Source: Bolinopsis microptera | Lineage: Eukaryota > Ctenophora > Tentaculata > Lobata > Bolinopsidae | Reading direction: 5' to 3' | Length of the DNA stretch: 64,000 nt | Assembly (NCBI RefSeq): GCF_026151205.1 | Contig: NC_087079.1 | Span: forward strand, 11,708,635-11,772,634 | Notes under the pieces: model-generated | What the model saw: the letters and a program-made list of their open reading frames with translations, nothing else | What the model was told of the DNA's origin: nothing | Databases searched by the model: none | Made by a program: the position numbers and the translations under genes | Shown: piece after piece, positions 2,824 to 64,000 of the stretch | How the letters are laid out: each line of letters starts with the position of its first letter | Position numbering within the stretch: the stretch's first letter is position 1

Positions 2824-5800
2824 ATACGACAATGTTATGCGTGTTTTCAAATATAATATGCGGGTGTGGTGCGGAGTTAACAAGGGTTAATTTCTATAAC
2901 GATTTAAATAAAAATAGAAAGCGGTTCAAGACGGGAGTGATGAGGTGTAATACTCGGTGTTCAGACCTTATGATCATGGAGTGTGGTGCCTCATGGCTAA
3001 TAATGACTTAATTATCCACAAGAAATAACTGATTATGAGATTATTGTTTAAGAAACTATTGGGTCACCTAATGCGGGTTTTGACTCAGCGGGTAATTACT
3101 CCTACCCTTTTTAACTGCGGCAGTGAAATCCCGGCCGTAGGCCGGGTTACACTAGTTATATCATAATGTAAGGTTCACAATTCACACACAAACTTGTAAA
3201 ACTAACACTGTGATTTATAAAGCGACTTGTAAAACTAACACTGTGATTTATAAAGCGACTTGTAAAACTAACACTGTGATTTATAAAGTGACTTGTAAAA
3301 CTAACACTGTGATTTATAAAGTGACTTGTGTTGCCGTAGAAAGCCGCGTCAATAGTGAACATCCCCTCGTCCACCTCCGTTCCTTCAGTTGTCTGGTAAT
3401 CCAAATCGAACAGGTATGTTAGACCTTGCGCATCGTATTCTCTAGAAAATGGCTTTTTAAAGAAGACTAAAAGTATCACCAATACCTTAGTTGTTAACTT
3501 ATGTCACTTAGTTTTTATAATATATACAATATACATTATATAATAGAAAGTAAAAGTGTTTAATTACTTTATATTGTTGATTTATTAAAACTTACTTCCC
3601 ACGCTGTTCAGCCTCGTCAAATGTTATAACTTCCCCCACGTACTCTACTACAAAAGTCCCTTTCGGAATATTCTGCAGAGTCTGAAACATAGTGTATTAT
3701 ATAATATATAAATATAATAGGCAATAACAGTGTTAAATTACTTATCTTGTTGATTTATTAAAACTAACGATTTCTAATGATGCGACGTTTTATCATGTTT
3801 TATGAATTTTCATATATGTTACTGTACTTACACAAAGTGAAACAACGGTTTTACAAACTATAAGTCGATAAATCGTTATTTGACTTAGTATATTCAGCTC
3901 ACTCGGTACTTTGTCACTGGATAAATTCAACAACAACAAAAGTATATTACTGTCGTTACATTTATTGTAAAATCCGGATCATTATTTATGAGTCGCATAG
4001 TTGAAATGTTGTCGCATTGAAACGTTGAATAATTCCTTTCCCTGATAAGAGCCTTTTCCTTGTCACATCAAACGGGATCAATACAAATTTTACCCAAGAA
4101 GCGTTATATTTATTGTTATATTGATTTGCATATTTTACGTTTATGGTGCCATATTGCACAGTTTCTTTTCCATTAAAATAACAAATATAGAAGATATCCC
4201 TTCAGTTACCTTGAGCCCCCAGCCCTTGTCGGGTGTCTTGTAGATGGCTGTTTTCACTTGAGTACCTCTCTGTACGATTCTGTTTCCGCAGTCGGGTCCG
4301 CAGGAGCAGCGAGCGTTACACTCGTATATGGGGAACCCTTGCTTCAGGAGTAACTTCCCTTTCTAGGGACAATACAATTAGTTTCCAAAAAACGGATACA
4401 AAAAAGTTGTCAGAAAGCGACAACCTTTCAAAAATGACTCAGTTTTAGAAAAGGAAGTTGTTCAAGAAGAAACAGTGTGACAGTTTTAGTCACATTTGTA
4501 TTGTATTCAACGAAAATAATCTAACTTATACTTTCTATTTTAGATCAAGAATTAAACGAATATTTATATATTTCGTGTTTTGCATATTTTCGCGCGAAAA
4601 AGATCTTTATTCAAAAAAAGGTCTCCGCGCGTTCCACACCAGTAGAAAATTAAGCGAAAATTATAGCAGTAGATGTTTTGTTTTCAGAATTGTAAGCGAA
4701 TGTCGCCCCAGTTCAGATACAAATTGGCGCAAAAGTTAGGTCAGTGCGCAAATGTTACAATTTCGCAAGGACACCTCTCACCTGCAGTCTGATGACATTT
4801 TGGTGCTGATGAAAATGTTTCGGCAACCAAATATTGAACAGATAAACTTTCATAGTCCAGGCAAGCAATTTACCGACATGGATCAAATATGAGTAATTAG
4901 ATTTCTGCAATACATTGTTACAGTTCGGATGGAAAATAGTACTTGAAACCGAATACGAACCCGGACCCTCTGATGTGAGGCGATAATGTTGCCAATGGGG
5001 CGACATTTGCTTACAATTCTGAGAAGTAAACCGGTCGACATTCTTACAATTTCGCTTACAATTTTGCTAGAACACCTCCTCAAAAATAGTGTTTTATGCA
5101 ATTAAAAAGAATTATTCCTTCCATAACCTACAAAACGATTTCCTTCAAACTTTCCAGATAGTAAGATAAGTATGAGACTGACAATATATGCAAGTTTGGG
5201 TAAATTTCTAACGGGCCAAATTTGAGATATCATTTCCCATCATTTCAAACACAAGAACATATCCCAAATAGGTGGTTCGCTATAGAACGCAGGCGAGAGA
5301 TCTTACGATGTGATTTTCTTTAAACTTTCCAGATAGTAAGATGGTTATAATAATGATAATCTGATTCTCAAATTCTACACATGAAAAATCATTCACACTA
5401 ACATCACGTGATTGATAAACTTACATTGTTGTAGGGAAACTGATAAACTTACATTGTTGTAGGGAAACTGATAAACTTACATTGTTGTAGGGAAACTGAT
5501 AAACTTACATTGTTGTAGGGAAACTGATAAACTTACATTGTTGTAGGGAAACTGATAAACTTACATTGTTGTAGGGAAACTGATAAACTTACATTGTTGT
5601 AGGGAAACTGATAAACTTACATTGTTGTAGGGAAACTGATAAACTTACATTGTTGTAGGGAAACTGATAAACTTACATTGTTGTAGGGAAACTGATAAAC
5701 TTACATTGTTGTAGGGAAACTGATAAACTTACATTGTTGTAGGGAAACTGATAAACTTACATTGTTGTAGGGAAACTGATAAACTTACATTGTTGTAGGG

Positions 5801-8800
5801 AAACTGATAAACTTACATTGTTGTAGGGAAACTGATAAACTTACATTGTTGTAGGGAAACTGATAAACTTACATTGTTGTAGGGAAACTGATAAACTTAC
5901 ATTGTTGTAGGGAAACTGATAAACTTACATTGTTGTAGGGAAACTGATAAACTTACATTGTTGTAGGGAAACTGATAAACTTACATTGTTGTAGGGAAAC
6001 TGATAAACTTACATTGTTGTAGGGAAACTGATAAACTTACATTGTTGTAGGGAAACTGATAAACTTACATTGTTGTAGGGAAACTGATAAACTTACATTG
6101 TTGTAGGGAAACTGATAAACTTACATTGTTGTAGGGAAACTGATAAACTTACATTGTTGTAGGGAAACTGATAAACTTACATTGTTGTAGGGAAACTGAT
6201 AAACTTACATTGTTGTAGGGAAACTGATAAACTTACATTGTTGTAGGGAAACTGATAAACTTACATTGTTGTAGGGAAACTGATAAACTTACATTGTTGT
6301 AGGGAAACTGATAAACTTACATTGTTGTAGGGAAACTGATAAACTTACATTGTTGTAGGGAAACTGATAAACTTACATTGTTGTAGGGAAACTGATAAAC
6401 TTACATTGTTGTAGGGAAACTGATAAACTTACATTGTTGTAAGGAACTGATAAACTTACTTGTGTAGGAAACTGATAAACTTACATTGTTGTAGGGAAAC
6501 TGATAAACTTACATTGTTGTAGGGAACTGATAAACTTACATTGTTGTAGGAAACTGTATAACTTACATTGTTGTAGGGAAACTGGTAACCTTACATTGTT
6601 GTCAGGAAACTGATAAACTACATTGTGTAGGGAAAAACTGATAAACTTACATTGTTGTAAGGGAAACTGATAAACTTACATTGTTGTAGGAAACTGATAA
6701 ACTTACATTGTTGTAGGGAAACTGTAAACTTACATTGTTGTAGGGCAAAACTGATAAACTTACATTGATTGTAGGGAAACTGGATAAACCTTACATTGTA
6801 AGGGCAGGGACTGTTAACTACATTGTTGTAGGGAAACTGGTAAACTACATTGTAAGGGAGGGAAACTGACTAAACTTTACATTGCAGAGGGAAACTGATA
6901 AACTACATTGTTGTAGGGAAACTGTAAACTTACATTGTTGTAGGGAAACTGATAACTTACATTGTTGTAGGGAAAATGATAAACTTACATTGTTGTAGGG
7001 AAACTGATAAACTTACATTGTTGTAAACTGATAAACTTTCTTGTTTAGGGAAACTTTACAACTTATTTTGTTGTAATGATGATATTTACTTTTGTAATGG
7101 AAACTCATTAAAATACAATTGGTTTGTACGAACAGCTTTCGGTGTTGTAGGGGTTCACTGAGTACACTCTTACATTTGTTTCGCAGGGGGAACGATTAAC
7201 GTATATGGGGAACCTGCTTAAACTTCCTTTTAGGGACATACACATTAGTTTAAAAAAAACGTACAAGTTGTAGAAACGAAACTTAAATTGTTTTAGAAAA
7301 GAATTGTAAGAAGAAACAGTGTAGAATTATACTTTATTGTTTAGGAAAATATTAACTTACTTTATTTAGATCAGAATTAAACATTTAATTTGGTTTGTAG
7401 GGAAAGATCTTACAAAAGGTTGGCTTCAACCTAAAATTAAGGAAAATTATAACTTACATTTTGTTTTAGGTGGAATCGATAAAAAATTGCCACATTAGTG
7501 TGGCAAATGTTAAATTTCGAGGGAACTTCATGCATCTTACTTTTTGTAGAAGTGAACAATGAAGATAACTTATATCCAACAATTTGCATGGTAAATTGAT
7601 AAACTTACATTGTTCGTGGAGGAAATGATAAACTTACAGGTTGTGTAGGGAAATGTAAATTACATTGTTAAATTGGGAAACGGTGAATTAAATTCCTTAC
7701 ATTTTGCTAGAAACCTAAAATATGTTTTAGAATTAAAAATTATTCTTAAAACTAAAAAATTTCCTTAAATTTGTAGTAAATGATAAACTTACAAGTTTGG
7801 GAACAACGGGCAAACTTAGATTCATTTAGCATAAAACAGAACTTACAATGGTTGTATAGGAATGTTTAAATTTTCTTTATTTAGGAAGTGGTATAAATTA
7901 ATTGTTTAAATCACATGAAAATCATTAATACACGGATGATAAACTTACATTGTTGTAGGGAAACTGATAAACTTACATTGTTGTAGGGAAACTGATAAAC
8001 TTACATTGTTGTAGGGAAACTGATAAACTTACATTGTTGTAGGGAAACTGATAAACTTACATTGTTGTAGGGAAACTGATAAACTTACATTGTTGTAGGG
8101 AAACTGATAAACTTACATTGTTGTAGGGAAACTGATAAACTTACATTGTTGTAGGGAAACTGATAAACTTACATTGTTGTAGGGAAACTGATAAACTTAC
8201 ATTGTTGTAGGGAAACTGATAAACTTACATTGTTGTAGGGAAACTGATAAACTTACATTGTTGTAGGGAAACTGATAAACTTACATTGTTGTAGGGAAAC
8301 TGATAAACTTACATTGTTGTAGGGAAACTGATAAACTTACATTGTTGTAGGGAAACTGATAAACTTACATTGTTGTAGGGAAACTGATAAACTTACATTG
8401 TTGTAGGGAAACTGATAAACTTACATTGTTGTAGGGAAACTGATAAACTTACATTGTTGTAGGGAAACTGATAAACTTACATTGTTGTAGGGAAACTGAT
8501 AAACTTACATTGTTGTAGGGAAACTGATAAACTTACATTGTTGTAGGGAAACTGATAAACTTACATTGTTGTAGGGAAACTGATAAACTTACATTGTTGT
8601 AGGGAAACTGATAAACTTACATTGTTGTAGGGAAACTGATAAACTTACATTGTTGTAGGGAAACTGATAAACTTACATTGTTGTAGGGAAACTGATAAAC
8701 TTACATTGTTGTAGGGAAACTGATAAACTTACATTGTTGTAGGGAAACTGATAAACTTACATTGTTGTAGGGAAACTGATAAACTTACATTGTTGTAGGG

Positions 8801-11800
8801 AAACTGATAAACTTACATTGTTGTAGGGAAACTGATAAACTTACATTGTTGTAGGGAAACTGATAAACTTACATTGTTGTAGGGAAACTGATAAACTTAC
8901 ATTGTTGTAGGGAAACTGATAAACTTACATTGTTGTAGGGAAACTGATAAACTTACATTGTTGTAGGGAAACTGATAAACTTACATTGTTGTAGGGAAAC
9001 TGATAAACTTACATTGTTGTAGGGAAACTGATAAACTTACATTGTTGTAGGGAAACTGATAAACTTACATTGTTGTAGGGAAACTGATAAACTTACATTG
9101 TTGTAGGGAAACTGATAAACTTACATTGTTGTAGGGAAACTGATAAACTTACATTGTTGTAGGGAAACTGATAAACTTACATTGTTGTAGGGAAACTGAT
9201 AAACTTACATTGTTGTAGGGAAACTGATAAACTTACATTGTTGTAGGGAAACTGATAAACTTACATTGTTGTAGGGAAACTGATAAACTTACATTGTTGT
9301 AGGGAAACTGATAAACTTACATTGTTGTAGGGAAACTGATAAACTTACATTGTTGTAGGGAAACTGATAAACTTACATTGTTGTAGGGAAACTGATAAAC
9401 TTACATTGTTGTAGGGAAACTGATAAACTTACATTGTTGTAGGGAAACTGATAAACTTACATTGTTGTAGGGAAACTGATAAACTTACATTGTTGTAGGG
9501 AAACTGATAAACTTACATTGTTGTAGGAAACTGATAAACTTACATTGTTGTAGGGAAACTGATAAACTTACATTGTTGTAGGGAAACTGATAAACTTACA
9601 TTGTTGTAGGGAAACTGATAAACTTACATTGTTGTAGGGAAACTGATAAACTTACATTATTGTAGGGAAACTGATAAATTTACATTGTTGTAGGGAAACT
9701 GGTAAACCTACATTGTAGCAGGGAAACTGATAAACTTACATTGTTGTAGGGAAACTGATAAACTTACATTGTTGTAGGGAAACTGGTAAACTTACATTGT
9801 TGTAGGGAAACTGATAAACTTACATTGTTGTAGGGAAACTGATAAACTTACATTGTTGTAGGGAAACTGGTAAACTTACATTGTTGTAGGGAAACTGATA
9901 AATTTACATTGTTGTAGGGAAACTGGTAAACTTACATTGTTGTAGGGAAACTGGTAAACCTACATTGTAGCAGGGAAACTGATAAACTTACATTGTTGTA
10001 GGGAAACTGATAAACTTACATTGTTGTAGGGAAACTGATAAATTTACATTGTTGTAGGGAAACTGGTAAACTTACATTGTTGTAGGGAAACTGATAAACT
10101 TACATTGTTGTAGGGAAACTGGTAAACTTACATTGTTGTAGGGAAACTGATAAACTTACATTGTTGTAGGGAAACTGATAAACTTACATTATTGTAGGGA
10201 AACTGATAAACTTACATTATTGTAGGGAAACTGATAAACTTACATTGTTGTAGGGAAACTGATAAACTTACATTGTTGTAGGGAAACTGATAAACTTACA
10301 TTATTGTAGGGAAACTGATAAACTTACATTATTGTAGGGAAACTGATAAACTTACATTGTTGTAGGGAAACTGATAAACTTACATTGTTGTAGGGAAACT
10401 GATAAACTTACATTGTTGTAGGGAAACTGATAAACTTACATTGTTGTAGGGAAACTGATAAACTTACATTATTGTAGGGAAACTGATAAACTTACATTGT
10501 TGTAGGGCACTTTCAAAAACATCTGTCATGGAAAAAATGTTAAAATTTGTCAAAAATCAGTTTTTGTGGCATAATTTGGTGGATAATGTTTGGAATGGGA
10601 TGAAACTCCAGGATATGGTGTGCTATACCCTAACCTTTACTATCTGCCACTTTTTGTTTCGATTTAGGGCTAAATCTGGTGGATAAAAGTGAAACAGACC
10701 AATCCACTTCAGGTGGCCTTTAAAAATATTTAATTCCATCTAAACTCCTAAAATATGATTGAGACTTAACAATAATCGTTATAACTTCATAATTTCATAA
10801 GTAGGGCCGGGATTTTTCTTAAGGGCCAAATTTGGTGGATATATTTGTTTACCTCTTTTTTAAGACTGTTATTTGTTAGCTAACATCAATTTACTGGTCT
10901 TAGAATGATGCAAAGGCAATGTTAAATCTATGGCATCAACTATGAAGTACAAGATTCAAGTTAAAAGGCTATTTTTGGTGGATATAAGTCAATATTAATT
11001 AGTTAAACACGTAAATGTTACCAAAATATCAATAAATAAGACATCATCATGATTAGAAACAGTTGAAAAAGATGAAATATAAGATGTTGAACAATTATGC
11101 ATAAGGTACTATGGCATTTTAAGCATTCAGGGCCAATTTGGTGGATAATTAACTCAAAAATACTTAAAATATCGACCTGGATATTTTGATATCCATCAAT
11201 TTTGGCCTTAAAAGTCGGCTTGAGCTTATCACATTTTGTGCTGAACAAGAAAAAGGTCTAAACAAACCAATATCAGTGTATGATTTCATAATTGAGCAAA
11301 TCTAAGGCCAGAAATAGTGGATAAAAAAGCAAATTTAACCGTTTTTAAGCTAATTTCTTAGGCATTTATCCACCAAAAACGGCCCTAAATGGAGAATGTT
11401 TGGAACGTTTACTTGAAACTATAGCCCTTCTTTACGACCTCAGAGCAATGATTTTCAGCTCTTTCGACCTTAAGATATAATTATTGGGCTTTGAAAGTGG
11501 ATCACATACGTTATCAGTAAAGAAATCGTTATTTCAATCGCTGAGGTAGGTTATTCACATTTAATATCCACCAATTTTAACCTTAAAAGTCGTCTTGGAC
11601 TGAGAATTCTTTTGAACTGACTCAGCAAAGGGGATCTTCTATCTAGAAACAGTTGTAGTTTCATGATAGAACACATCTTGGGCCAAAAATAGTGGATAAA
11701 AATCAAATTTTCCAGTTTGTGTGCTTTTATCCATCAAAAACGGCTCTAAAGGCTGAAAGGAGACAGTTTGTTAAGTTCGTATGAAACTATATCCATTCGT

Positions 11801-14800
11801 TATGGCCCTAGAGCAATAATTGTATACATTTTCAGCTTCTAGACGAGATAATTGGGGTCTAACAATGGATAACCTGCATTATTGACACAGAATTTGACTT
11901 AAAAATAAAATCAATCTTGAAGCTCCAATATATCCACCAAAAATGGCCTAAAAATTAAATCATCTATGCTATCATAAACTTGAAACGATTTCCAACCTGA
12001 TCCGTTCACTGAGAAAAGCTGGTGAACTTGTTGACCAATATAATTTTTTCAGTTGAAAATTTTCGGTATTGAATTTTATTTCATCGTTTTATTATCCACC
12101 ATATGTAGCCTTAAAATTGAAATCTTTCTTTATTTTCGCCTTTTATCATAGAGGCATATCGATTTGCTACAATTCTATCTTTAAATAATCACCATAAATT
12201 AACCACACGTAAAGTTACAGGCCAACAAATGATATATCCACCAAACCCCTCTGAAAAGTATATCCACCATTATTAGCCTTGATTTAAATGCGTGTATCTC
12301 TGCTCATAGACATAGTGGACATTTTATTCTTTTTGTAAAAGTTGAACTATCGCAAATCCTATGCTGAAAAAAATTTTAATCAAAATATTGAGTATATCCA
12401 CCAAATGAGAGCTTCTAGAAGTTGAAATTTTTCCCGTGACAGATTCGTTAACATAGTTTTTGAAAGTGCCCTGTAGGGAAACTGATAAACTTACATTGTT
12501 GTAAGGAAACTGATAAACTTACATTGTTGTAGGGAAACTGATAAACTTACATTATTGTAGGGAAACTGATAAACTTACATTGTTGTAGGGAAACTGATAA
12601 ACTTACATTGTTGTAGGGAAACTGATAAACTTACATTGTTGTAGGGAAACTGATAAACTTACATTGTTGTAGGGAAACTGATAAACTTACATTGTTGTAG
12701 GGAAACTGATAAACTTACATTATTGTAGGGAAACTGATAAACTTACATTATTGTAGGGAAACTGATAAACTTACATTGTTGTAAGGAAACTGATAAACTT
12801 ACATTGTTGTAGGGAAACTGATAAACTTACATTGTTGTAAGGAAACTGATAAACTTACATTGTTGTAGGGAAACTGATAAACTTACATTATTGTAGGGAA
12901 ACTGATAAACTTACATTGTTGTAGGGAAACTGATAAACTTACATTGTTGTAGGGAAACTGATAAACTTACATTGTTGTAGGGAAACTGATAAACTTACAT
13001 TGTTGTAGGGAAACTGATAAACTTACATTGTTGTAAGGAAACTGATAAACTTACATTGTTGTAGGGAAACTGATAAACTTACATTGTTGTAAGGAAACTG
13101 ATAAACTTACATTGTTGTAGGGAAACTGATAAACTTACATTATTGTAGGGAAACTGATAAACTTACATTGTTGTAGGGAAACTGATAAACTTACATTGTT
13201 GTAGGGAAACTGGTAAACTTACATTGTAACAGGGAAACTGATAAACTTACATTGTTGTAGGGAAACTGATAAACTTACATTGTAACAGGGAAACTGATAA
13301 ACTTACATTGCAGCAGGGAAACTGATAAACTTACATTGTTGTAGGGAAACTGATAAACTTACATTGTTGTAGGGAAACTGATAAACTTACATTGTTGTAG
13401 GGAAACTGATAAACTTACATTGTTGTAGGGAAACTGATAAACTTACATTGTTGTAGGGAAACTGATAAACTTACATTGTTGTAGGGAAACTGATAAACTT
13501 ACATTGTTGTAGGGAAACTGATAAACTTACATTGTAACAGGGAAACTGATAAACTTACATTGTTGTAGGGAAGAGCTGCCCCGCCTAAATGTGGGCAGCA
13601 CTCCACGTGAGGAGACAAGCAGCAGTCCTTAACACCGTACTCTCCTGAACAGACACAACCTGAAACGGGAGTAGAATAAGGGGCCAACTAGTTAGTAACA
13701 CTGTTAGTTACCATAGTTACAACTAGTGACCATAAACATTAGTTACTTTTAGTTTGATTGTGGTATCAGTAAGTGACATGAATAGCAACATTAACTAAAT
13801 TTTAGCTACGGTTGCTAAGACTGACCTATGAGTGTATCGTCACTTATATGAACTCCTTTTCCAGCAAACCTATCTCGCACAAATGTGAAGTTCAGGGGCG
13901 GCAAGTTGAAGTCCACCGTATTCAGTATCTGCGTAAATAGGACCATTACTTTGATTAACCATATTCAGTATCTGAATCCAGCTAGTGTATATTACAGAAT
14001 CCAGCTAGTGTATATTACATAATCCAGCTGGTGTATATTACAGAATCCAGCTGGTGTATATTACAGAATCCAGCTGGTGTATATTACAGAATCCAGCTGG
14101 TGTATATTACAGAATCCAGCTGGTGTATATTACAGAATCCAGCTAGTGTATATTACAGAATCCAGCTGGTGTATATTACAGAATCCAGCTGGTGTATATT
14201 AGAGAATCAAGCTAGTGTATATTAGAGAATACAGCTAGTGTATACTGTATATTACAGAATCCAGCTGGTGTATATTACAGAATCCAGCTGGTGTATATTA
14301 CAGAATCCAACTGGTGTAATAATAATATATATATTATTCTTATTATTACCTCGACAGTGGGAAAAGAGGGGCCCAGTTCCTCTTGAACTTTATTTGCGTA
14401 CTGTTTTAACAATCTCCTGTATTGCACTTTAAGTGCCTGTGAAGACAATTCCGCATTTAGCTGCCACAGATGTACCTGAAGAAGAGGTACTACAAATAGT
14501 GCTCCACAAACCTTTTAACATGTTCTTTAAGAAACATTATCGAGAATAAATTTTAATGGTAATAATTTACGAATGAAGATACCTGTGATTTTATAGCGGA
14601 AATCTTCTGTGTTCGTTTCTTTAGTCGCGTTTTTATAGCTTTCAAATCCTCGCAAATAGCGCTGGGAAAGGTTGACAATCAAAAATTTTATATTATTTAA
14701 TATGTCAACTTATCTACCTTCAAAACTGAACGATTTTATCTGAAAATGTGTGGGAAGGAACCCATTTTGCCAGAAATGAATAAAAAACTTTTCTTAATGT

Positions 14801-18340: not shown

Positions 18341-18344
18341 CGAC

Positions 18345-29363: not shown

Positions 29364-30418
29364 CAGGGGTGGGCGACAATTGACCCCCCGACAATTGACC
29401 CCCCGACAATTGACCCCCGACAATTGACCCCCCGACAATTGACCCCCCGACAATTGACCCCCGAAAATATAATTTAATACAATTAACCCTGACCCTGACC
29501 CTGACCCTGACCCTGACCCTGACCCATGACCCTGACCCAGGAACAGCTGTCCCTGACCCTAACCCTAACCCCAACCCTAACCCTAACGTTAACCCTAACC
29601 CTAACCCTAACCCTAACCCTAACCCTAACCCTAACCCTAACCCTAACCCTAACCCGATTAATTTACCCCAGTTTAATTACAATTGTCGGGGGTCAATTGT
29701 CGGGGGGTCAATTGTCGGGGGGTCAATTGTCGGGGGGTCAATTGTCGGGGGGTCAATTGTCGTACTAAGCCCTAGATTTCGCGACAATTGACCCCAGTGT
29801 AATTACATAGAGGGTCAATTGTCGGGGGGTCAATTGTCGGGGGGTTAATTGTCGGGGGGTCAATTGTCGGGGGGTCAATTGTCGTACTAAACCCTAGATT
29901 TCGCGACAATTGACCCCAGTGTAATTACATAGGGGGTCAATTGTCGGGGGGTCAATTGTCGGGGGGTCAATTGTCGGGGGGTCAATTGACCCCCCGACAA
30001 TTGACCCCCCGACAATTGACCCCCCGACAATTGACCCCCGACAATTGACCCCCCGACAATTGACCCCCCGACAATTGACCCCCGAAAATATAATTTAATA
30101 CAATTAACCCTGACCCTGACCCTGACCCTGACCCTGACCCTGACCCTGACCCTGACCCTGACCCTGGCCCTGACCCTGACCCTGACCCTGACCCTGACCC
30201 TGACCCATGACCCTGACCCAGGAACAGCTGTCCCTGACCCTAACCCTAACCCCAACCCTAACCCTAAGCCTAACCCTAACCCTAACCCTAACCCTAACGT
30301 TAACCCTAACCCTAACCCTAACCCTAACCCTAACCCTAACCCTAACCCTAACCCTAACCCTAACCCTAACCCTAACCCTAACCCGATTAATTTACCCCAG
30401 TTTAATTACAATTGTCGG
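29364..30418. repeat. Composite telomere-like and 15-bp G-rich repeat modules
   Basis: Order: inverted 15-bp array (GACAATTGACCCCCC), CCCTGA repeats (about 29488-29533), CCCTAA repeats (about 29557-29655), forward 15-bp arrays (GTCAATTGTCGGGGG) with spacer GTACTAARCCCTAGATTTCG, a palindromic switch near 29990 (GGGGGTCAATTGACCCCC), then again inverted 15-bp array, CCCTGA (about 30106-30206), CCCTAA (about 30240-30386) and CAATTGTCGGGGG. The module occurs twice in tandem before the LINE insertion. Confidence 0.92.
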
Positions 30419-34896: not shown

Positions 34897-35084
34897 CGAT
34901 CCAGTAATATGTATAATCCTTCGAAAACAACTGTGTTGCACACTTGTATACACACTGTGTATAACAGGTGTAATAAGAAGGTTAAGCTCTTACACACGTT
35001 ACACGCAAATATTGCTTATATCGGTAGATATATCAGAGCTATTAAAATCGTTGCAAAATGTAAACGTACTACTAACTTCAATTT

Positions 35085-35437
35085 GTCGGGGGGTCAATTG
35101 TCGGGGGGTCAATTGTCGGGGGGTCAATTGTCGGGGGGTCAATTGTCGTACTAAGCCCTAGATTTCGCGACAATTGACCCCAGTGTAATAACATAGAGGG
35201 TCAATTGTCGGGGGGTCAATTGTCGGGGGGTTAATTGTCGGGGGGTCAATTTTCGGGGGGTCAATTGTCGTACTAAACCCTAGATTTCGCGACAATTGAC
35301 CCCAGTGTAATTACATAGGGGGTCAATTGTCGGGGGGTCAATTGTCGGGGGGTCAATTGTCGGGGGGTCAATTGTCGGGGGGTCAATTGTCGGGGGGTCA
35401 ATTGTCGGGGGGTCAATTGTCGGGGGGTCAATTGTCG
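35085..35437. repeat. 15-bp GTCAATTGTCGGGGG arrays on the far side of the LINE
   Basis: Near-identical to 29683-29993, including the two spacers GTACTAARCCCTAGATTTCG, then nine or so further units to GTCGCGGTACC. Confidence 0.92.
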
Positions 35438-44700: not shown

Positions 44701-47700
44701 CGCAATGATTGATTGTTGAATGCCCCAAAGTTTCTACACAACGGTGAATTCGCGGCTTACGTAAAATTGAAATCGAATAGTGATTCCAGAAGGATTTACG
44801 ACAAAACTTTTCCAAATAAAACTGTAAGGCCTACAAAATGAATTGTTTTAAATTTAAGGTAACCCTTCAAACACAAGAAAATATTCCCAAATCGGTGGTT
44901 CGCTGCGGAACACAGGCATCTAGAGATACAGAGATATAGAGATCCTACTATACGATTTTCTTTAAATTTCCAAGATAATATTTGACAAAAATCAGTGTTA
45001 GTACTAATAAGACTAAATTAGAAGTTACTGGTGTTTTATGAAAAGTTTGAATGAAACTTACTGGAGCTTTGAAGTGACAAGGCCGAATCCTTCTTCGTGA
45101 GCACAACTTATGTCCTGTTTTCGTTTTTGCAACTGAAAAACCATCGTTTAAATTGACAATTTTCATCAGACCAAAAGAACCATTAGACAAAGAATATGAG
45201 AATGTTTAACTAGATTGTTGCGATACAGTCAGTGGGGTGGGGGGGGGGGGGGAGGGGAGGAGTACTATACTCCCCCCCCCCCCCCCTTGGGGTGGGGTAC
45301 TATACTCTCACCACTCACATTGCTTTCAATAACACTAAATCTATTCCGCCACCGTGACCGCTCTGTATTCAAAGCATTAGACATCACACCAGCGTCTATT
45401 CTAGCTTGGTCCCTTGCTCCTTCTACCTTGGCTTCTGTTATAATCTTCTGTACCTGAACAATATTGCTCTAGAAAAGTACGATCAGACAAACGGTCAATT
45501 GAAAATATTCACGGCTATTTTAAAAGGTTTTAAACACTGATTGAAATTAATCCGACGAAAATAAGGTCGTTAATCGGGATACACACCTCTTGTTTTTTGT
45601 ACTCTCCAAATAATGACTGAGCGAGATTGTCTGACGGTGGAAGCTCATTTATTTCATCAGGGATTGATACCGCAACCACAGGCTCGATAACCGGCTTAAT
45701 TTGAGTTAACTCTACAGCTGGTCCAACCTCTACTTCTACCACTGGCTCAACGACTGGCTCAACGACTGGCTCAACGACTGGCTCAACGACTGGCTCAACG
45801 ACTGGCTCAACGACTGGCTCAACGACTGGTTCAACGACTGGTTCAACGACTGGCTCACTCTCAGTAGATTCAGGCTCTACTGGTTTAGCGATTTTATCAG
45901 TCTCTGGTTCCGAATTGGCTATTTCATTTCTAGCCGAGATGAAGTATGGTTCGATGGCTTTCTGTATTAAACCGAATAAGCTATGAGACTCTGAAGAATC
46001 AGATGAGGTCTTAACAATCTCTGATTGAACAATAGCTTCTGGTGTCATTACAACAGACTCTGGTATTTCAACAGGTTCTGGCAATAAATGAACTGGCTCT
46101 GATGCCGTTTCAATAGACTCTAGGACCGGTTCAATAGACTCTATGACCGGTTCAACAGGCTCTGGTAATGTTTCGACAGGCTCTGACACCGTTTCAATTG
46201 ACTCTAGGACCGGTTCAACAGGCTCTGGTACCGTTTCAACAGACTCTGGCATCGTTTCAATAGACTCTAGGACCGGTTCAACAGGCTCTAGTACCGTTTC
46301 AACAGGCTCTATTACCGTTTCAACAGGCTCTAGTACCGTTTCAACAGGCTCTGACACCGTTTCAATAGACTCCAAGACCGGTTCAACAGGCTCTGGTACA
46401 GTTTCGACAGGCTCTGACACTGTTTCAATAGACTCTAGGTCCGATTCAACAGGCTCTGGTACAGTTTCGACAGACTCTGGCACCGTTTCAATGGACTCTA
46501 GTGCCGGTTCAACAGGCTCTGGTACAGTTTCGACAGACTCTGGCACCGTTTCAATGGACTCTAGTGCCGGTTCGACAGGCTCTGGTACAGTTTCGACAGA
46601 CTCTGGCACCGTTTCAATGGACTCTAGTGCCGGTTCAACAGGCTCTGGTACAGTTTCGACAGACTCTGGAACCGTTTCAATGGACTCTAGTGCCGTTTCG
46701 ACAGGCTCTGACACTGTTTCAATAGACTCTAGGACCGATTCAACAGGCTCTGGTACAGTTTCGACAGACTCTGGCACCGTTTCAATGGACTCTAGTGCCG
46801 TTTCGACAGGCTCTGGTACAGTTTCGACAGACTCTGGCACCGTTTCGATAGACTCTAGTGCCGTTCCGACATGCTCTGGTATAGTTTCATCTACCTCTGA
46901 AGGTATTTCAACAGGTTCGGTCACTGATTCAACTGCTTCAACAGACTCAGATAACACAGGTTCAAGCTCCACATCTTCTTGGTTGAGTATTTCAACATGT
47001 TCCACTACTGGTGTGTCAGGTGATTGCTCGATAATATGATCTTGAGCTGGGTCTGCTTCTAATTCAGTTGCAGGAGCCTCTAAAACTGCTTCTAATTCAG
47101 TTGCAGGAGCCTTTGAATCTTCTACAATTTCCTGTTCGATGGGTAACGATTCAACTATTGCGTTAGTCTCCAAGATGAGTAGTTCCACAACTGGTTCCTC
47201 TATTGTAGATACATGAGCCCCAGGTTCTACATTACACTGCTCCTCTGCTGAAGGATCTGAAATGGCAGGTTCCAGAATAGCTTTCGTTTCAGCTGCCAAT
47301 GTCTCCGATATTAATTCTAGTTCATCAGTGACAGGGAGTATAAAGATTGGTGCTTCTACTTGATCACCATCCAGTGGTCGCATTTCTTCCGCTGTTTCCA
47401 TACAATCAAGTGATTTAACTTCTTCTTTGGGAGTAGTTGTAGGCTCAGATAATTCTTCTTCTTCTTCTTGTATAACGTTGTCATTCAGATTAGATGAAGC
47501 TGATTTGTCCTCTTGAACGGGTTCGTCTGAAAAGAGTGTAAATTAGAATACAATATTACATTCAAATGTAATTTACCTTAGTCATATGCGGTTTAAAGAG
47601 AATAAGTTTTAACCACAACTGCTTAATAGCAAATCTTACAACTATACATATATCGGAACAAAATCGTTATTACATATTATATTTAAACCACTACTGGAAC

Positions 47701-50700
47701 ATCCAAAATTCATATATTCCATTATATTCATATAAAAAGCATTGCGCGTAAATAAATATCAATATATAATATAAAATATCAATATAAATAGCTGTGTGTA
47801 AGATGGGAACAAAATCACATATTTAAGATGATTTAAATCAGAACACGCATTTTGAGTTGAACCGATTTGAATTTGATAAGAATCGATTTGAAATTGATAA
47901 AAGTAGCTTTGCGACAGAATTTATGCAATGTTTTCAGAGAAAAATAATGCTGGATTTGAAATGAAGAGAATCAACAAACACAAAAGCGCAGAACAGCATG
48001 CTGATTAACAGGGACAATGAACCTTTACCAGCTTGTTCTTCTCCGCACATTTCTTCAATACTTTCTTCTTTCAAATTATCCGTAAAAGCAGGTACTTCAG
48101 CTGGGTCGTTACCAATCATTAATACCTCCTCCTTTGGCGCATCATAAGATACCAATCCCTCTCGCTGGATTTCATCAGCTACAATAGCCGATATTTCTTG
48201 GTCAGATTTCTCAGGCACAGCCTGTTCTTGTGGTGCGGTAATTCCAATGTAAGGAGCTGTGGTATCTTCTTCTTCGGTACATTCCTTATCTGTGTCTGTG
48301 GTTGGAATAAGCTCTTCTTCTTCGGTACATTCCTTATCTGTCTCTGTGTGTGGAATGAGCTCTTCTTCTTTGGTACATTCCTTATTTGTCTCTGTGTGTG
48401 GATTAAGCTCTTCTTCTACTATACATTCCTTATCTGTCTCTGTGTGTAGATTGAGCTCTTCTTCTTCGGTACATTCCTTATCTGTCTCTGTGTGTGGAAT
48501 GAGCTCTTCTTCTTCGGTACATTCCTTATCTGTCTCTGTGTGTGGAATGAGCTCTTCTTCTACTATACATTCCTCTACAGGTAGAGAGTCTGCAAATATT
48601 TTACCAGGTGAGCTAGGTTCAGTGTCTTGAATAGAACTATCAAAGTTTGACGTCATAACATCTTCTATTTCTTCATCATTGTCGGATAAAACGACAGACT
48701 CCAATTGGGGGGCATCATTTAACGGCTCCAATTCGATGATATCCTTTAGCGGCTCCAGGAGTGGAACCTCACTACCCTCTACACATCCCTCCCTGCACAT
48801 TTCATCACCACTGTCGCTACTATTATCCTCGCTATCTGATAGCTCTATCTCACTATCAGTATCACTTAGATCTGTAGTGGGAACTAGCACGTTCTCTGTT
48901 GTACAGACTGTCTCACTTTCTCTATCATTAACATCTAATTCAAGAGCTTGATCAGATTCAGCAATCGCTGGTTCAATCTGTATCTGTTCAACCGTAGGAT
49001 CCGTCACAATGTTAGGTTGATTATCAGCTGTAATTATCGTTTATTATTACAGTTATTCTTTTACAAAACAAATTTTTTTTTAATAAAACAAAAATATTAC
49101 CGTATTAATAAAACAAAAATATTATTACGCCATTTATTGAAAATCCGGATAAGATATCGTACCTGCCATGTTCAGTTTTCAATTTAAAGCTATTTAAGTA
49201 CTTATCAAACAATATTCGCAATATTTTGGCCTATAGCTCCCAATTTAGATTTATAGACTCAAAATGTAATAAACTGCTGCACTGCAGCTTGGTATTTTGG
49301 GCTACTAAGCCTCCTATGTCCACCCGAAAGATTGAATATGGTTCTTACATATATATAATGGGACGTATTGAATCCTCCTATTATTATAATATATTATTAT
49401 TAAATATAAATAGTGAATTACTTGGTTGTAGTCCAGGGTATAAATATAGCGGGGGGAGCTCCAAAGCATTTACGGATCCAATTTGATTCCCCACCATTCC
49501 AGACATCACGGGAAAGTTACCTGGGTGAGAAACAGGTTAGACAAACCAGCTCCGTACCTGGGGTCACAATGAGCTCTACCAGCTCCCTACCTGGGGTCTC
49601 AATGAGCTCTACCAGCTCCCTACCTGGGGTCTCAATGGGCTCTACCAGCTCCCTAACTGGGGTCTCAATGAGCTCTACCAGCTCCGTACCTGGGGTTCTC
49701 AATGAGCTCTACCAGCTCCCTACCTGGGGTCTCAATGGGCTCTACCAGCTCCCTACCTGGGGTCTCAATGGGCTATACCAGCTCCCTACCTGGGGTCACA
49801 ATGGGCTCTACCAGCTCATAAGGCTCGATGTCCTCATAGTATTCTTCTTCATCGTCCTCCTCCTCATCGTCTTCAAAGTCTAAACCCAAATCAGCTCCTA
49901 TTGATTTATACAGCTCCATGTCAACCGTCTGAAGTAAGTTATGGTGTGAAATTATGAAATATAAAGGTTATGCAGCCCTGGTAGTATACTTCGTTGGAAT
50001 CAAATGACGATTTAAAATAAAAGGGGGGGGGGGGGGGGGGGGGGGGGGCGAAACAGCTGCCGAAATGGAAACTCGTTGCTGGATTGAGGGGAATGAAGGC
50101 AGCGACCTCCGGGTGGTCAGCAACTCTTATGATGAACTGATAAAGTATCTACTATCTATGAAGCACACCAAATTAACCAGAGTACATTGGGGCTTATTTC
50201 TCAGTCACTGATTAAAATAATTCTTTCTGATATCGCTCATTCGAGGAAAATAACCATGTTAATTTTTCCGAATGCACGTTCACTTTCAGATATTTTGACT
50301 GACTGGATAGAGTTAAATAACAATGTATTGTGTTCGTCCTTACAAAATAAACATGTCCTGAAAAAATGGGAACTGTAGCTACTCAGATGACCGAGATATC
50401 AAGGATTTAAAAGAGTTTATTCATTACGTGGTATCAGGTGATTGGGTTGAAACTAGATCCACATTATGGGAAATGTGCAGAAAGCCTTATTACGGTGTCG
50501 TACCACGTTATCACATGATTAGCCAATCAATTTCGCTTTAAACGAGAAAATAATAATGATAATAACTAGAAATGTATACATCGCTTTATATCCAAAAAGA
50601 ACTCAAAATCCAAGATTCAGTTCAAGCCATCTAAAGCGAACAAATTGCATGAACACTTTGTTAATTTGTATCCGTTTTGCGTCATCTTTCAGATCATATT

Positions 50701-52967: not shown

Positions 52968-53197
52968 GGTCATAGACTTGAATCCTGGCAGAACATAACC
53001 ATATCATAACCATGTCATAACCATGTCATAACCATGTCATAACCTTGCCATAACCATGTCATGCATAACCGCTTTTTAGTTGTGACATGGTTATGACGTT
53101 TGTCTGACATGGATATGACATACATGGTTGTGAGTTGTGACATGGTTATAAGATGGTTGTGACATGGTTATGCTGTCGGGAATCTAGTCTATGACCC
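52968..53197. mobile_element. Foldback element of inverted ATAACCATGTC arrays
   Basis: Ends GGTCATAGACTTGAATCC and, reversed, GGTCATAGACTAGATTCC, with CATAACCATGTCATAACC units on the left and GACATGGTTATGACAT units on the right. Flanked by AATTAAA and AATTGAA, a possible imperfect TSD. The whole 230 bp can fold on itself. Confidence 0.7.
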
Positions 53198-57339: not shown

Positions 57340-59046
57340 TTAGTTATCGTCGACTATGATTGCAGTGTAAAATTTGTCATATGAATTGTCGACGGTATAA
57401 TTAGGGTCTGTTGTTATAGATGAGAGTAGCTGTTTCTTATACGAATCACTTAAGCTTTTAACATCGGGCAGATTTCGTAGATCTGTTGGAACATTATTCC
57501 AACATTTTGCCCCCAAGTATTGAAAGTTTTTATGTGATGTTGATCTATTAACATATAGGTTGCAGCTTTCGCCGCTCCTACTACCTCCTGATATGTAACT
57601 AAATTTGTTCATAAAGTTTGTAGGACAATTGTCATGGATGATTCTAAACATATAATTTGACAGATGGAGTTGTCGTCTAAGATGGAGTGGTAACCATTTC
57701 ATGTCTCTATAAACATTAAGGCTGCTCTCTGTTTGTGGAACGTTGAGAGCTATTTTGGCTACCTTTTTGTACAGAGTGTCAAGTTCAGCAAGTTTTGTCT
57801 TGCCAGCTCTACAATAGATCGTGTCTAAATAATCGAATTGTGGCAACATGAGTGCATTGGCAAACATTTTCCTATATTTAATGGGTAGCAGTGCTTTACT
57901 TCTATACATGGCACCAATTCTCTTCATGACCTTCTTAATAATATAATCTACATGGCTTTTGAAGTTTAATTTACTATCTAGAATGAGGCCAAGATATTTT
58001 GTCTCTTTGCACTCCTTGATTGTGAAAGTTACCTCATTACATTCAATGGTTAATTCATCATGTTGATCAACAGAATCAAACAATAGGAATTCAGTCTTCG
58101 TTTCATTGAGTGATAATTTATTTACACTGAGCCATTTAAAGATTGTCATAAGTTCTATTTTCATGTTTATAAATGTGCTTCTGCAGGTTTGATCAAAGAA
58201 TAGTGCACCATCATCTGCAAATAGAAAGGGCTTAGATAGGTTACAGGCATAAATGATGTCATTTATGAAGATACTAAATAATATAGGCCCAATGATGCTT
58301 CCTTGTGGTACACCACTCAGAACTTCTAAAAATGAGCTTATTTTGCCATTGATCCTTGTGCATTGATATCTACAAGATAAGAAGTTCTTAAACCAGGTTA
58401 AAGCAATGCCACCAATTCCATAATATGCCAATTTTTGAAGCAATATTTCATGATTCACTGTGTCAAAGGCCTTCTTAAGATCAAGAAAGATGATTCCTGG
58501 TTTATAAGACTTAGATTTACTCATATATATTTCGTCCATCAGATCGTACATCAAATAAGTTGTGGAGTGATTTTTCCGAAAGCCATATTGATGCCGGATG
58601 AAAAGTTTGTTCTCTTCCATGTAATCAGTGAGTTGCTTGCCGACAAAGTATTCTATAAGTTTTCCTACAAGTGGAAGGATGGATATTGGCCTGTAATTAT
58701 TAGGATCATCTTTCATTCCTGCCTTATGGATGGGAGTTACTCTAGCTTTTTTACAAAGGGTTGGTACAACACCTGTATTAAGGCTCAAATTGACAATATG
58801 GGTCAGTGGCTCAACTATGTGTGGTACAGCTTGCTTAAGTAAAAATAGAGGCACATCGTCATATGAGGCCTTGTCATTCTTGAGTGTTTCGACATACATT
58901 AGGATATCAGTTTCGTTTATTTCTTGGAATCTATCAAATGAGATGTTAGAAGTTCTAGGAGGTAAAAAATCAGTAAAACTAACTCTTTCAATATTGGGGG
59001 CCTGATTTTGTAATCTTGATCCAACATGACTACCGTAAACTACTTA
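57340..59046 (-). mobile_element. 5'-truncated LINE (L2/CR1/jockey-like) with intact RT frame
   Basis: The open frame runs from about 59040 to 57340: RVSFTDFLPPRTSN, then YRPISILPLVGKLIEYFVG, IIFLDLKKAFDTVNHEILL, LSGVPQGSIIGPILFSIFIN, PFLFADDGALFFD (catalytic FADD) and the C-terminal WNNVPTDLRNLP tail. No endonuclease part; truncated at the TAA just upstream of 59040. It is distinct from the 30-35 kb LINE. Confidence 0.85.
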
Positions 59047-59284
59047 AGCATATTATTAACACAGCAGTGTAAGGTACAACGGTGGAGGTACGTGTATGAC
59101 TGTGCGTGAGAAGATTTACAAATTAAGGTCACGGTTGACCAGGTGTTCACGTTAAGCATCAAATCTCTATACAGTGAATGTCATTCACACACTAGAACAC
59201 CCATGCAGCACACACTAGAACACCATTAGCATGCAATTGCTTGTGCAAATTATGTAGTACATAACCCTGCCCCTACGATGTATG

Positions 59285-59574
59285 CAGTGGCGTAACGTTG
59301 CCTGTTGGCGCCCCCCTGCCGAAAAAAGCGCCCCCCTGTTGGCGCCCCCTCCCTTTTTGGTGCCCCTCCCTAAAATTGAACAAATTAGGTGATTTTAAAG
59401 AATACGCCGGTAAAATCTCTAAAAAAGTGTGTATCTAGAGCAAAACGCGCAGTTTTGCTAGTACTTTAGTTAAGTTTTCGAAATTGTCCCACATTCAAAC
59501 GACGATTTGGCGCACCCCCTAAGACGGCGCCCCCCTGCACAGCGGGGTCAGCAGGGCCTTTCGTTACGCCACTG
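59285..59574. mobile_element. hAT-type MITE with 8-bp target duplication
   Basis: TIRs CAGTGGCGTAACG ... CGTTACGCCACTG, flanked by perfect GATGTATG at 59277-59284 and 59575-59582. 290 bp, GC-rich ends with GGCGCCCCCCTG words, no ORF. An 8-bp TSD and CAGTG ends are hallmarks of hAT elements. Confidence 0.92.
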
Positions 59575-59582
59575 GATGTATG

Positions 59583-60902: not shown

Positions 60903-60975
60903 ACAATTCAGTTATGGCGGTATTCAGCCGCAGCCGCCCCAAGATAACAAGTGCATAATCTTAAGGTTGATGGTA
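60903..60975. repeat. Dispersed repeat shared with 2171-2242
   Basis: AGCCGCAGCCGCCCCAAGAT and GCATAATCTTAAGGTTGATG match the first copy in the same orientation. Confidence 0.6.
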
Positions 60976-61060
60976 GCCATGTACACATGAAAACGACGCA
61001 TCTAAAGACGACTTGTGACTCAAATAGTTTCGGCTTTTTAACTCCATCCACAAGGGAGTA

Positions 61061-61151
61061 TCACCTCAATAAATGTAATAGATTTGTATTTTATAAACTA
61101 GTTTATAAACTAGTTACAACACAACAAATCTATTACATTTGTTGAGGGTGA
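61061..61151. repeat. 91-bp near-perfect hairpin
   Basis: TCACCTCAATAAATGTAATA-GATTTGT is inverted as ACAAATC-TATTACATTTGTTGAGGGTGA around a loop that itself repeats TTTATAAACTAGT. Probably a small MITE. Confidence 0.75.
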
Positions 61152-61835
61152 ACAGAAAATTAAAAAAATAAAACTCGTCATTTATGAAAATAATTTAAGT
61201 ACTTATAAACTGATATATTACAATATGCTGTATTACCAACAATCCAAATTGGTGTACAATGTACATTTAACCTAAAAAGCAAGCAATGAAAGAAATTATC
61301 TCAGATGACCATGTATAATAATATATAGATGACAAAATATCTGGTATTTGAAATTTTAACCATATCAAATAGACAATTTTCAAGGCATAATCAAAAAAGG
61401 TCGTTCTCTGACTTGAAATATTGACAGCTCTAATCTTAATTATATAAAAAAGAAAACAATTGACCAGACACATAAAAAGATGATATTCTCTGCTATTATA
61501 CACAATATTACACTAGAAATGTAACCATCCCCTCTCTGAACCATAATAATGATGCATCTACAAATTTGAGTTGTGATAAAAACATTTATGAAGTGCTAGA
61601 AGTATCAATAATTTTAACATTCTAACATTCTTACACATAAACCCAAAATGAAATAAGTAATTAAATCAGCTCCTTAGAAAAAGAAAATGATATTGTTGTT
61701 TTGAGTGTTTAATAATTCTTATTATTCACATATCACATTGTTTAATTGAATGCGAAACAAAAGAAAAGAATCTAGAATATAAATTTATCCCAAATGAGTA
61801 CTTTAAGATAAGTACTCAGTACTTATGTTTCTCGT
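61152..61835. other. 3' flank of the TMED gene, nothing recognised
   Basis: AT-rich; probably includes the TMED 3' UTR (AATAAT/AATAAA-type words) on the minus strand. Confidence 0.4.
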
Positions 61836-61898
61836 TTAAATTTTGGCTTGCCTTTTGGCTGTCTTGTCCTCTTTAAATAACTGCTTCAGCAAATACAC
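61836..61898 (-). CDS. TMED last exon
   Basis: 63 nt with TAA at 61836-61838. Encodes the end of the TM helix and a Lys-rich cytosolic tail. Confidence 0.82.
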   Translation of the reverse strand: MYLLKQLFKEDKTAKRQAKI

Positions 61899-63203
61899 CT
61901 GAAAAAAATAACCCACAATTATTTCATGTCTTAGATAAGAAGGGGTTTTATAATCCATTAAGTTACTGTGGTAACAGTGTAGTATTGATTATAATCCATT
62001 AAGTTACTGTGGTAACAGTGTAGTATTGATTATAATCCATTAAGTTACCGTGGTAACAGTGTAGTATTGATTATAATCCATTAAGTTACTGTGGTAACAG
62101 TGTAGTATTGATTATAACCCATTAAGTAGCTAAGAAGTTTAGCTTGGTATAATTAATTAATTAAGACTGCACTACTACACTGTTACCATAGTAACAGTGT
62201 AGTATTGTTCGTATAGTGACCAGGTGTTTAAACTCCACGTGTCCTAATGGCTAATACGCAGGAACTATTTAAGATGGTCACTGTGTGAGCCTATCAGTGT
62301 AGGTATTGTGTTCAGTTGAAATAATAATCCAGGGTTTCAGAAACTTGTTGACTATTTTATAGAGTGTTGAGATTATGATTGTGAAATTGATGGTGTACCC
62401 AATTACAAAAAATACAATAAATCTATCAGTATCTGGAAAGAAAATTAAAGAAGAGTTTTGTCCTAATTGTCAATGACCTGGACAGTTATAGCCATGAGTA
62501 CCATGAAGGCACACTACTATTACTACTGACCTGAACAGTAGCAATGAGTACCATGAAGGCACACTACTATCACTACTGACCTGGACAGTAGCCATGAGTA
62601 CCATGAAGGCACACTACTATCACTACTGACCTGGATCGGACAGTAGCCATGAGTACCATGAAGGCACACTACTATTACTACTGACCTGGACTGTAGCCAT
62701 GAGTACCATGAAGGCACACTACTATCACTACTGACCTGGACTGTAGCCATGAGTACCATGAAGGCACACTACTATCACTACTGACCTGGACAGTAGCCAT
62801 GAGTACCATGAAGGCACACTACTATTACTACTGACCTGGACAGTAGCCATGAGTACCATGAAGGCACACTACTATTACTACTGACCTGGACAGTAGCCAT
62901 GAGTACCATGAAGGCACACTACTATTACTACTGACCTGGACAGTAGCCATGAGTACCATGAAGGCACACTACTATCACTACTGACCTGGACAGTAGCCAT
63001 GAGTACCATGAAGGCACACTACTATCACTACTGACCTGGACAGTAGCCATGAGTACCATGAAGGCACACTGTACCATACTCCACCGGTCCACCCTTATCT
63101 TATTACTGTTCTGTATCTTCTGGTCTTTGTTTCTCTGAGCTTTACTGAGTTGGAGTTGAACTTGAGTCTTGAAAAGCTGACTCTTTATGTTATCTACTTG
63201 TTT
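61836..63203 (-). CDS. p24/TMED family cargo receptor, last two exons (5' part beyond the window)
   Basis: ER-Golgi p24 cargo receptor. Exon 63203-63036 (acceptor ccttcag, donor GTCCAG|gtcagt) encodes a helical stretch (KQVDNIKSQLFKTQVQL...), then RVDRWSMVQCAFMVLMATVQ, the start of the transmembrane helix. Exon 61898-61836 (acceptor ttttcag) encodes VYLLKQLFKEDKTAKRQAKI and a TAA. Together they give the p24 ending: WS-rich border, one TM helix, then QVYLLKxxF like the cytosolic tails of TMED5/7 (QVCTLKRFF, QVFLLKSFF). The lysines of the tail may serve COPI binding. The GOLD domain exons lie to the right of the window. The intron between these exons begins with a 50-bp array of the exon end and donor. 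Confidence 0.82.
61950..62120. repeat. 41-bp tandem repeat (4 units) in the TMED intron
   Basis: Unit TAATCCATTAAGTTACTGTG-GTAACAGTGTAGTATTGATTA, with the palindrome GTTACTGTGGTAAC. An inverted related segment occurs near 62170-62210. Confidence 0.9.
62475..63075 (-). repeat. 50-bp tandem repeat of TMED exon end plus 5' splice site (about 12 units)
   Basis: Coding-strand unit: TGTGCCTTCATGGTACTCAT, GGCTACTGTCCAG, then gtcagtagtgatagtag. The most proximal copy is the real exon; the rest are intronic. Variants include one 55-bp unit. Confidence 0.92.
63036..63203 (-). CDS. TMED penultimate exon
   Basis: 168 nt, 56 codons: coiled coil plus first half of the TM helix. Its last 35 nt are repeated about 11 more times in the following intron. 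Confidence 0.82.
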
Positions 63204-63240
63204 CTGAAGGGATAAAAGCGTATTGGTAAATCATTTACAA

Positions 63241-64000
63241 CGTTTGAAAATTAAGTTACTAACATGGAGAGATGTGAAAATCGCGTAAAGTGAAGCAAGT
63301 TACTAACATGGAGAGATGCGAATCCCGCGTGAAGTGAAGCAAGTTACTAACATGGAGAGATGTGAATCCCGCGTGAAGTGAAGCAAGTTACTAACATGGA
63401 GAGATGTGAATCCCGCGTGAAGTGAAGCAAGTTATTAACATGGAGAGATGTGAATCCCGCTTGAAGTGAAGCAAGTTACTTACATGGAGAGATGTGAATC
63501 CCGCGTGAAGTGAAGCAAGTTATTAACATGGAGAGATGTGAATCCCGAGTGAAGTGAAGCAAGTTACTAACATGGAGAGATGTGAATCCCGCGTGAAGTG
63601 AAGCAAGTTATTAACATGGAGAGATGTGAATCCCGAGTGAAGTGAAGCAAGTTACTAACATGGAGAGATGTGAATCCCGCGTGAAATGAAGCAAGTTACT
63701 TACATGGAGAGATGTGAATCCCGTGTAAAGTGAAGCAAGTTATTAACATGGAGAGATGTGAATCCCGAGTGAAGTGAAGCAAGTTACTAACATGGAGAGA
63801 TGTGAATCCCGCGTGAAGTAAAGCAAGTTATTAACATGGAGAGATGTGAATCCCGAGTGAAGTGAAGCAAGTTACTAACATGGAGAGATGTGAATGCCGT
63901 GTAAAGTGAAGCAAGTTATTAACATGGAGAGATGTGAATCCCGAGTGAAGTGAAGCAAGTTACTTACATGGAGAGATGTGAATCCCGTGTAAAGTGAAGC
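63241..64000 (-). repeat. 44-bp tandem repeat running off the right edge
   Basis: About 17 units. On the coding strand each contains CACATCTCTCCAT followed by gttagt or gtaagt. It lies in the intron upstream of TMED exon 63203 and may also derive from an exon end, but that exon is outside the window. Confidence 0.9.

Follow-up and report, generated by a model that had tools for sequence, protein, structure and literature searches.

Tandem repeats that span exon-intron boundaries have been described in amphioxus under the name of mirages, in Adh3 and in the globin genes BflGb6 and BflGb9 (PMC3087553), with PGBD5 and troponin C added in a second paper (PMC3902484). The mirage units measure 10-72 bp in Adh3 and about 150-160 bp in the globins, many but not all of the units keep the splice signal, regular splicing is reported as undisturbed, the boundary concerned may be a donor or an acceptor, and the repeat number differs between haplotypes (PMC3087553, PMC3902484). 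Mirages have also been proposed as a source of introns in amphioxus, and intron gain by tandem duplication across AG/GT has been put forward more generally (Rogers 1989, Zhuo 2007, Gao and Lynch 2009, as cited in PMC3087553). Here we describe five arrays of this kind in the ctenophore Bolinopsis microptera. The window, i.e. the whole stretch of 64,000 nt that was analysed, covers positions 11708635-11772634 of contig C8 (NC_087079.1), and the genome searched amounts to 264.65 Mb in 232 contigs. An earlier note on this DNA had described four of the arrays as repeats of an exon end with its donor and another as carrying GTTAGT/GTAAGT in each unit, and knew of no named system of the sort; the amphioxus mirages had already supplied the name. 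Our search of the ctenophore literature found no title on such arrays, which does not exclude one.

All five arrays were recovered by Tandem Repeats Finder (reporting threshold 50; scores of 262 to 6890 in the window) where the earlier note had seen them, all of them on the minus strand, and each repeats the 3' end of an exon together with its 5' splice site. Read on that strand, every unit consists of the last 14 to 33 nt of the exon and of 5 to 17 nt of intron from the donor onward, the first copy being the real exon end. The units, of 28, 33, 33, 50 and 44 bp (exon plus intron nt: 14+14, 24+9, 28+5, 33+17 and 33+11), are unrelated to one another. A single dispersed satellite would be expected to show the same unit at many loci, but the five units differ; the 33-bp SET array described below, the only one with which the genome was searched, gave no second locus among the 40 of 442 candidates scored in a search that skips simple repeats, its other matches falling at query positions 770-930. 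Nearly all matches elsewhere are on the contigs with numbers from 1 to 13. At 4006-4100 of the window (query 815-909) lies a short dispersed repeat, ~95 bp long, with dozens of copies across many large contigs.

Two of the arrays belong to a gene with Chromo, Pre-SET and SET domains, the SUV39H of the earlier note. The unit of the 28-bp array is the last 14 nt of the Pre-SET exon (~13662-13559) plus GTAAGTTTATCAGT, and it forms an exon-proximal block of 39.3 copies (12472..13572) and a distal block that Tandem Repeats Finder puts at 181.9 copies (5413..10507). By direct reading, these two parts of one array are split by a transposon-like insertion of ~2 kb (10507..12472), whose terminal inverted repeats read GGGCACTTTCAAAAAC and for which TGTA is a likely 4-bp target duplication. 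The Pre-SET exon ends in CCCTACAACAAT before GTAAGT, and the next exon starts with AAAGGGAAG near 4362, in phase 0. The 33-bp SET array (3192..3329, 4.2 copies) repeats the last 24 nt of a SET-domain exon, whose end lies at 3306, plus GTTAGTTTT; this later exon ends in AATCACAGT before GTTAGT, and joining it to TGCGATCCT yields NHSCDPN, a conserved SET motif. The TMED/p24 gene carries two more arrays. At exon 4 (63203-63036), which ends in ACTGTCCAG before GTCAGT, a 50-bp unit made of the last 33 nt of the exon plus GTCAGTAGTGATAGTAG is present in 11.8 copies (62474..63070). The array that the earlier note had placed at 63241-64000 stood as an array, and is assigned here to the 3' end of TMED exon 3: its 44-bp unit is the last 33 nt of that exon plus GTAAGTAACTT, with 17.0 copies in the window (63253..64000), and it continues into the next stretch (L069) as far as position 133, for 20 units in total. 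Exon 3 ends in TCTCTCCAT before GTAAGT, the true donor lying in L069, 100 bases beyond the window. The remaining array (33 bp, 8.2 copies, 49545..49817) has a unit formed by the final 28 nt of exon 2 (49928-49790) and GTAGG, in an acidic-repeat gene at 44-51 kb; the exon ends in GTGACCCCAG before GTAGGG and joins exon 3 (CTGATAATCAA) in phase 1, and copy 2 holds an in-frame TAG. Pfam lent no support to the name MIC19, previously given to this gene, and the name was rejected: two pieces of the gene had no match there, even with E allowed to reach 1. Coding minisatellites with units of 48 bp, 21/63 bp and 12 bp lie in two very large reading frames of this gene (45530-49040).

All array junctions are in phase with the next exon, and four of them, two in the SET gene and two in the p24 gene, are set by protein homology. 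For the Pfam searches, products were spliced at the exon-proximal donor, only such joins serving as queries. Splicing in this way gives a complete SET domain (PF00856, 2.9e-26, 105/105 positions), a continuous Pre-SET domain (PF05033, 7.5e-16) and a complete EMP24/GOLD domain (PF01105, 2.3e-39) that is unbroken over the exon 4 junction; the p24 query, which by error included six residues from intron sequence where exons 3 and 4 meet, still matched all 182 profile positions. We then joined each of the first seven donors per array, or four donors in the short 33-bp SET array, to the next exon. In both TMED arrays, the acidic-repeat gene and the 28-bp SET array, only the first of the seven donors reaches the next exon in an open and intact frame, the later ones running into stops or shifting the frame. 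Stepping through the arrays unit by unit showed internal donors to be altered in two of them: the 20 units at TMED exon 3 carry GTAAGT (4), GTTAGT (10) or GTTAAT (6), and three of the eight donors in the acidic-repeat gene are changed. In both of these the donor side is more variable than the exon side (0.083 vs 0.033, and 0.150 vs 0.045 in the acidic-repeat gene, where one unit is shifted by a base). GTCAGT is kept in 10 of the 11 units stepped through at TMED exon 4, the eleventh being out of register. These patterns of frame and donor fit use of the first donor, and there is no general sign that the extra donors are maintained, though the two SET-gene arrays would not contradict maintenance.

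We consider it likely that the arrays are intronic minisatellites of the mirage type, local tandem duplications that have been kept because the first donor still gives a normal mRNA. A duplication, by replication slippage, unequal exchange or repair, would by chance have spanned the 3' end of an exon and its donor. Because the spliceosome would go on using the first donor, the later copies would be intronic and the mRNA unchanged, and the array would then be free to grow, shrink, homogenise or decay. From the intact frames and the continuous domains we infer first-donor use in RNA, and with it neutrality: the arrays are probably harmless, the first splice site being the one used. Of the three ideas offered in the earlier note, i.e. 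slippage or repair at donors, selection for extra U1 sites, and tolerance through a working proximal donor, the last is the best supported. Acceptors can be duplicated too, but there the real site would be the last copy, and because decoy AGs would precede it, fewer acceptor arrays would be expected to survive.

To see how often such arrays occur elsewhere, six protein families were searched in the genome itself and the sequence was taken for part of their exons. Junction pairs came from kinesin, myosin, TCP1 and SNF2 exons that are consecutive in the profile and whose intron is wholly covered, pairs with a large profile gap or overlap being skipped; 80 pairs could be placed and 3 could not, and removal of duplicates left 78 introns, some of them with uncertain junctions. 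Tandem copies span 3 of the 78 donors (52, 2 and 2 copies) and 2 of the 78 acceptors, one of the two acceptor cases being called an array by Tandem Repeats Finder. At the three donors the proximal site matches the kinesin profile to the codon, a match that was itself part of the placing score. One of the three was not blind as to region, because that region (L070) had been picked partly for an array already visible at the locus, its gene having been in the first family list. What the earlier note had said of unrelated units, local origin and recurrence at donors is upheld, with two donor octamers also over-represented in tandem clusters (see below), but donors are not exclusive, given the two spanned acceptors and a two-copy acceptor duplication in the SET gene itself (13918..13975, minus strand; CAGATACTGAATA(C/T)GGT, copies ~46 bp apart), which adjoins a 23-bp intronic array at 13974-14318. 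Outside the paired set, a 49-bp x 7 array lies over the 5' end of a kinesin exon match (L022:1735-2078, i.e. C2:6087272-6087615) and is apparently an acceptor-side mirage.

The same sample bears on the strongest competing account, in which minisatellites are blind to position: introns being rich in arrays and short, some arrays would overlap a donor or acceptor by chance, and donors as such would be irrelevant. Arrays are indeed frequent, with 21 of the 78 introns bearing one (junction cases counted in), 22 interior arrays, and ~22% of 2627 interior intron points falling in a tandem match. At the founder rate of interior arrays, 1.5% per intron site, 1.2 arrays per side would be expected (another formula gives 1.8), and 3 donor arrays were seen (p = 0.12 against 1.2); for donors and acceptors together the figures are 5 seen and 2.4 expected (p = 0.097), neither excess being significant. 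The comparison of donors with the rest of the intron that the earlier note had proposed thus gave no significant excess, and the 78-intron sample does not prove a donor preference, because 1.2 to 1.8 arrays per side are expected from the other arrays. We nevertheless hold the position-blind account to be somewhat unlikely, on the strength of the motif counts given below. The wealth of arrays is seen as well in one kinesin gene at C12:14833295-14836857 (L031, L033, L035), which has arrays in four of the five introns examined (units of 13, 21, 32 and 41 bp), two of them beginning at most 6 bp from the donor. Arrays also show a route for intron growth, since in a kinesin intron of 1818 bp all but 98 bp belong to the array. 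In the window, a 41-bp array of 4.4 copies (61948..62127; Tandem Repeats Finder) inside the last TMED intron, away from the junctions, provides an internal comparison. Tandem Repeats Finder marked 13% of the genome of another ctenophore, Hormiphora, as repeats (PMC8527503), which fits a tandem-rich group.

Motif counts cover the whole genome. A cluster was counted where three copies of a motif lie 10-40 bases apart, with the motif read backwards as an imperfect control; such counts give long arrays more weight, and arrays were listed from the first ~100 places per search. The donor octamers AGGTAAGT and AGGTGAGT gave 1347 clustered matches against 11 reversed and 1187 against 183, and the donor hexamer GTAAGT 16,393 against 3,050; the acceptor motif TTTTCAGG gave 317 against 95, and TTCAGG 6,569 against 1,015. 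Isolated occurrences in a 339 kb sample were nearly equal for the donor motifs and their reverses (11 v 13 for each octamer, 185 v 172 for GTAAGT), while TTTTCAGG occurred 31 v 4 times and TTCAGG 200 v 94 times. Per isolated occurrence, triples thus number 0.11-0.16 for donor motifs, 0.013-0.042 for acceptor motifs and 0.001-0.030 for reversed controls, with TTTTCAGG below its own reverse. Of the 78 introns, 4 have AGGTAAGT and 14 have GTAAGT as their true donor, and 5 have TTTTCAGG and 17 have TTCAGG as their true acceptor, so that GTAAGT and TTCAGG have similar shares of true sites (14/78 and 17/78). Among the matches listed, which for the two donor octamers extend over the initial 17.65 Mb of C1, those octamers form 14 arrays with periods of 22 to 46 bp (one unit is common to two arrays, and two may be parts of a single array), and TTTTCAGG forms 5 (two sharing a unit) in ~59 Mb, a figure that includes an estimated length for C2; the ratio of densities is ~9 (p = 4e-6, before allowing for shared units). 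For GTAAGT the list gives 8 arrays over the initial 2.59 Mb of C1, each of them on the plus strand, apparently the only strand that this list covers, and TTCAGG has ~9 listed arrays with at least 3 matches in 10.15 Mb on both strands, one of them a satellite with a 293-bp period.

The motif counts favour donors over acceptors, and the excess of clustered octamers, with isolated occurrences near parity, and of octamer arrays argues against position-blind arrays. The octamer result is stronger than that for the hexamers, yet it rests on four non-donor comparison octamers (11, 183, 95 and 317 matches). The GTAAGT list, scaled up, suggests some 1,600 arrays genome-wide, and an extrapolation from it with the 14/78 donors, which assumes that most of the listed arrays sit at donors, leads to thousands of donor-spanning arrays. 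That these arrays outnumber acceptor-spanning ones several-fold, as a natural record of a 5'-to-3', first-come choice of donor, is a possibility that we put forward tentatively. If true, extra downstream donors would be invisible to splicing and extra upstream acceptors would not, and splice-site choice could be measured from genome sequence alone. The asymmetry between donors and acceptors is only partly shown, and selection is its presumed cause.

Several observations weigh against first-donor tolerance or against the donor bias. Classical work is reported to find that splicing can prefer the downstream donor of an equal pair. The 28-bp array has kept GTAAGT in 39/39 units of the proximal block and in 85/90 distal units (90 of ~182 were stepped through), which decay alone does not predict, unless the array is young or homogenised. 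In the 33-bp SET array, with GTTAGT in 4/4 units, the frame is still open and correct when as many as three copies are added, and these could enter the mRNA. Donors (3) and acceptors (2) are not told apart by the 78-intron sample, and the octamer AGGTGAGT is the true donor in 0/78 introns. Of 118 arrays outside the window, 8 contain GTAAGT and 0 its reverse, but GTTAGT stands at 2 vs 5 and GTGAGT at 0 vs 1, and GTAAGT is only third of 90 hexamers of the same composition (AGTGTA 10, TGGTAA 8, mean 2.1). This ranking favours position-blind arrays and speaks against the reversed hexamers as an adequate control on their own: as arrays favour words unrelated to donors, some of the excess of hexamers comes from composition rather than from donors.

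It is quite unlikely, in our judgement, that donors are a mutational hotspot that provokes duplication, e.g. through U1 binding, R-loops or polymerase pausing, so that arrays start there more often. The clustered counts of AGGTAAGT, AGGTGAGT and GTAAGT over their reversed controls would be expected on such an account, as would a donor rate of 3/78 (3.8%) against 1.5% per interior site, but the latter excess is not significant, so that a donor-specific hotspot inferred from the 78 introns had to be rejected, and acceptors are struck too (2/78). Still less probable is selection for extra U1-binding sites, e.g. to prevent premature polyadenylation in long introns or to modulate splicing: it would account for the nearly complete retention of donors in the two SET-gene arrays, but in two of the five arrays variation is greater on the donor side than on the exon side, two arrays carry weak donors (GTCAGT, GTAGGG), and acceptor-side arrays exist, leaving this suggestion of the earlier note unsupported. 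Least probable of all is that the arrays are relics of introns born by tandem duplication of exon sequence (the Rogers model), since, although the units hold exon sequence and in some cases AG/GT, and mirages were proposed to be a source of introns in amphioxus, all five arrays stop short of the acceptor and the final intron bases, on direct reading with no alignment run, are unlike the unit.

Some features of the window lie apart from these genes. Telomere-like TAACCC arrays are found inside the chromosome (29484-29655 and 30105-30384, within 29374-30384), flanked by 15-bp and 122-bp arrays of CAATTGTCGGGGGGT, and the 122-bp unit occurs again 5 kb away (35078-35392, within 35078-35437). On the minus strand, a 567-codon reading frame at 57340-59043 resembles, by eye, a LINE-type reverse transcriptase.

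The arrays extend mirages from amphioxus to an early animal lineage, the ctenophores, and suggest that mirages commonly arise as a side product when sequence is tandemly duplicated in short introns. The donor/acceptor asymmetry, if confirmed on annotated junctions, would serve as a simple test, at the level of the genome, of the spliceosome's choice between identical sites. Set beside known systems, the interior minisatellites of the same genome overlap the arrays in period range and probably share their mutational source, but do not overlap a junction. Intron gain by tandem duplication creates an intron anew, with its acceptor in a copy of the duplicated unit; a local duplication copying a splice signal is common to both, but here the acceptor is unrelated to the unit in all five introns. 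The closest likeness is with the mirages, of which the window arrays show the four defining features that could be examined: the unit spans the exon-intron boundary in 5/5 arrays (and elsewhere at 3/78 donors and 2/78 acceptors); the unit lengths of 28, 33, 33, 44 and 50 bp are within the Adh3 range of 10-72 bp; the splice signal is kept in many but not all units, as at TMED exon 3, and in nearly all in the two SET-gene arrays; and donor and acceptor boundaries are both involved in this genome (2/78 acceptors, and 13918-13975 in the window). The differences are the ctenophore host, a copy number of up to ~221, splicing that is predicted here from the DNA sequence, and the rough genome-wide count with its comparison of donors and acceptors. 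The arrays are thus a new occurrence of a known structure, one that is apparently common in this genome and perhaps biased towards donors.

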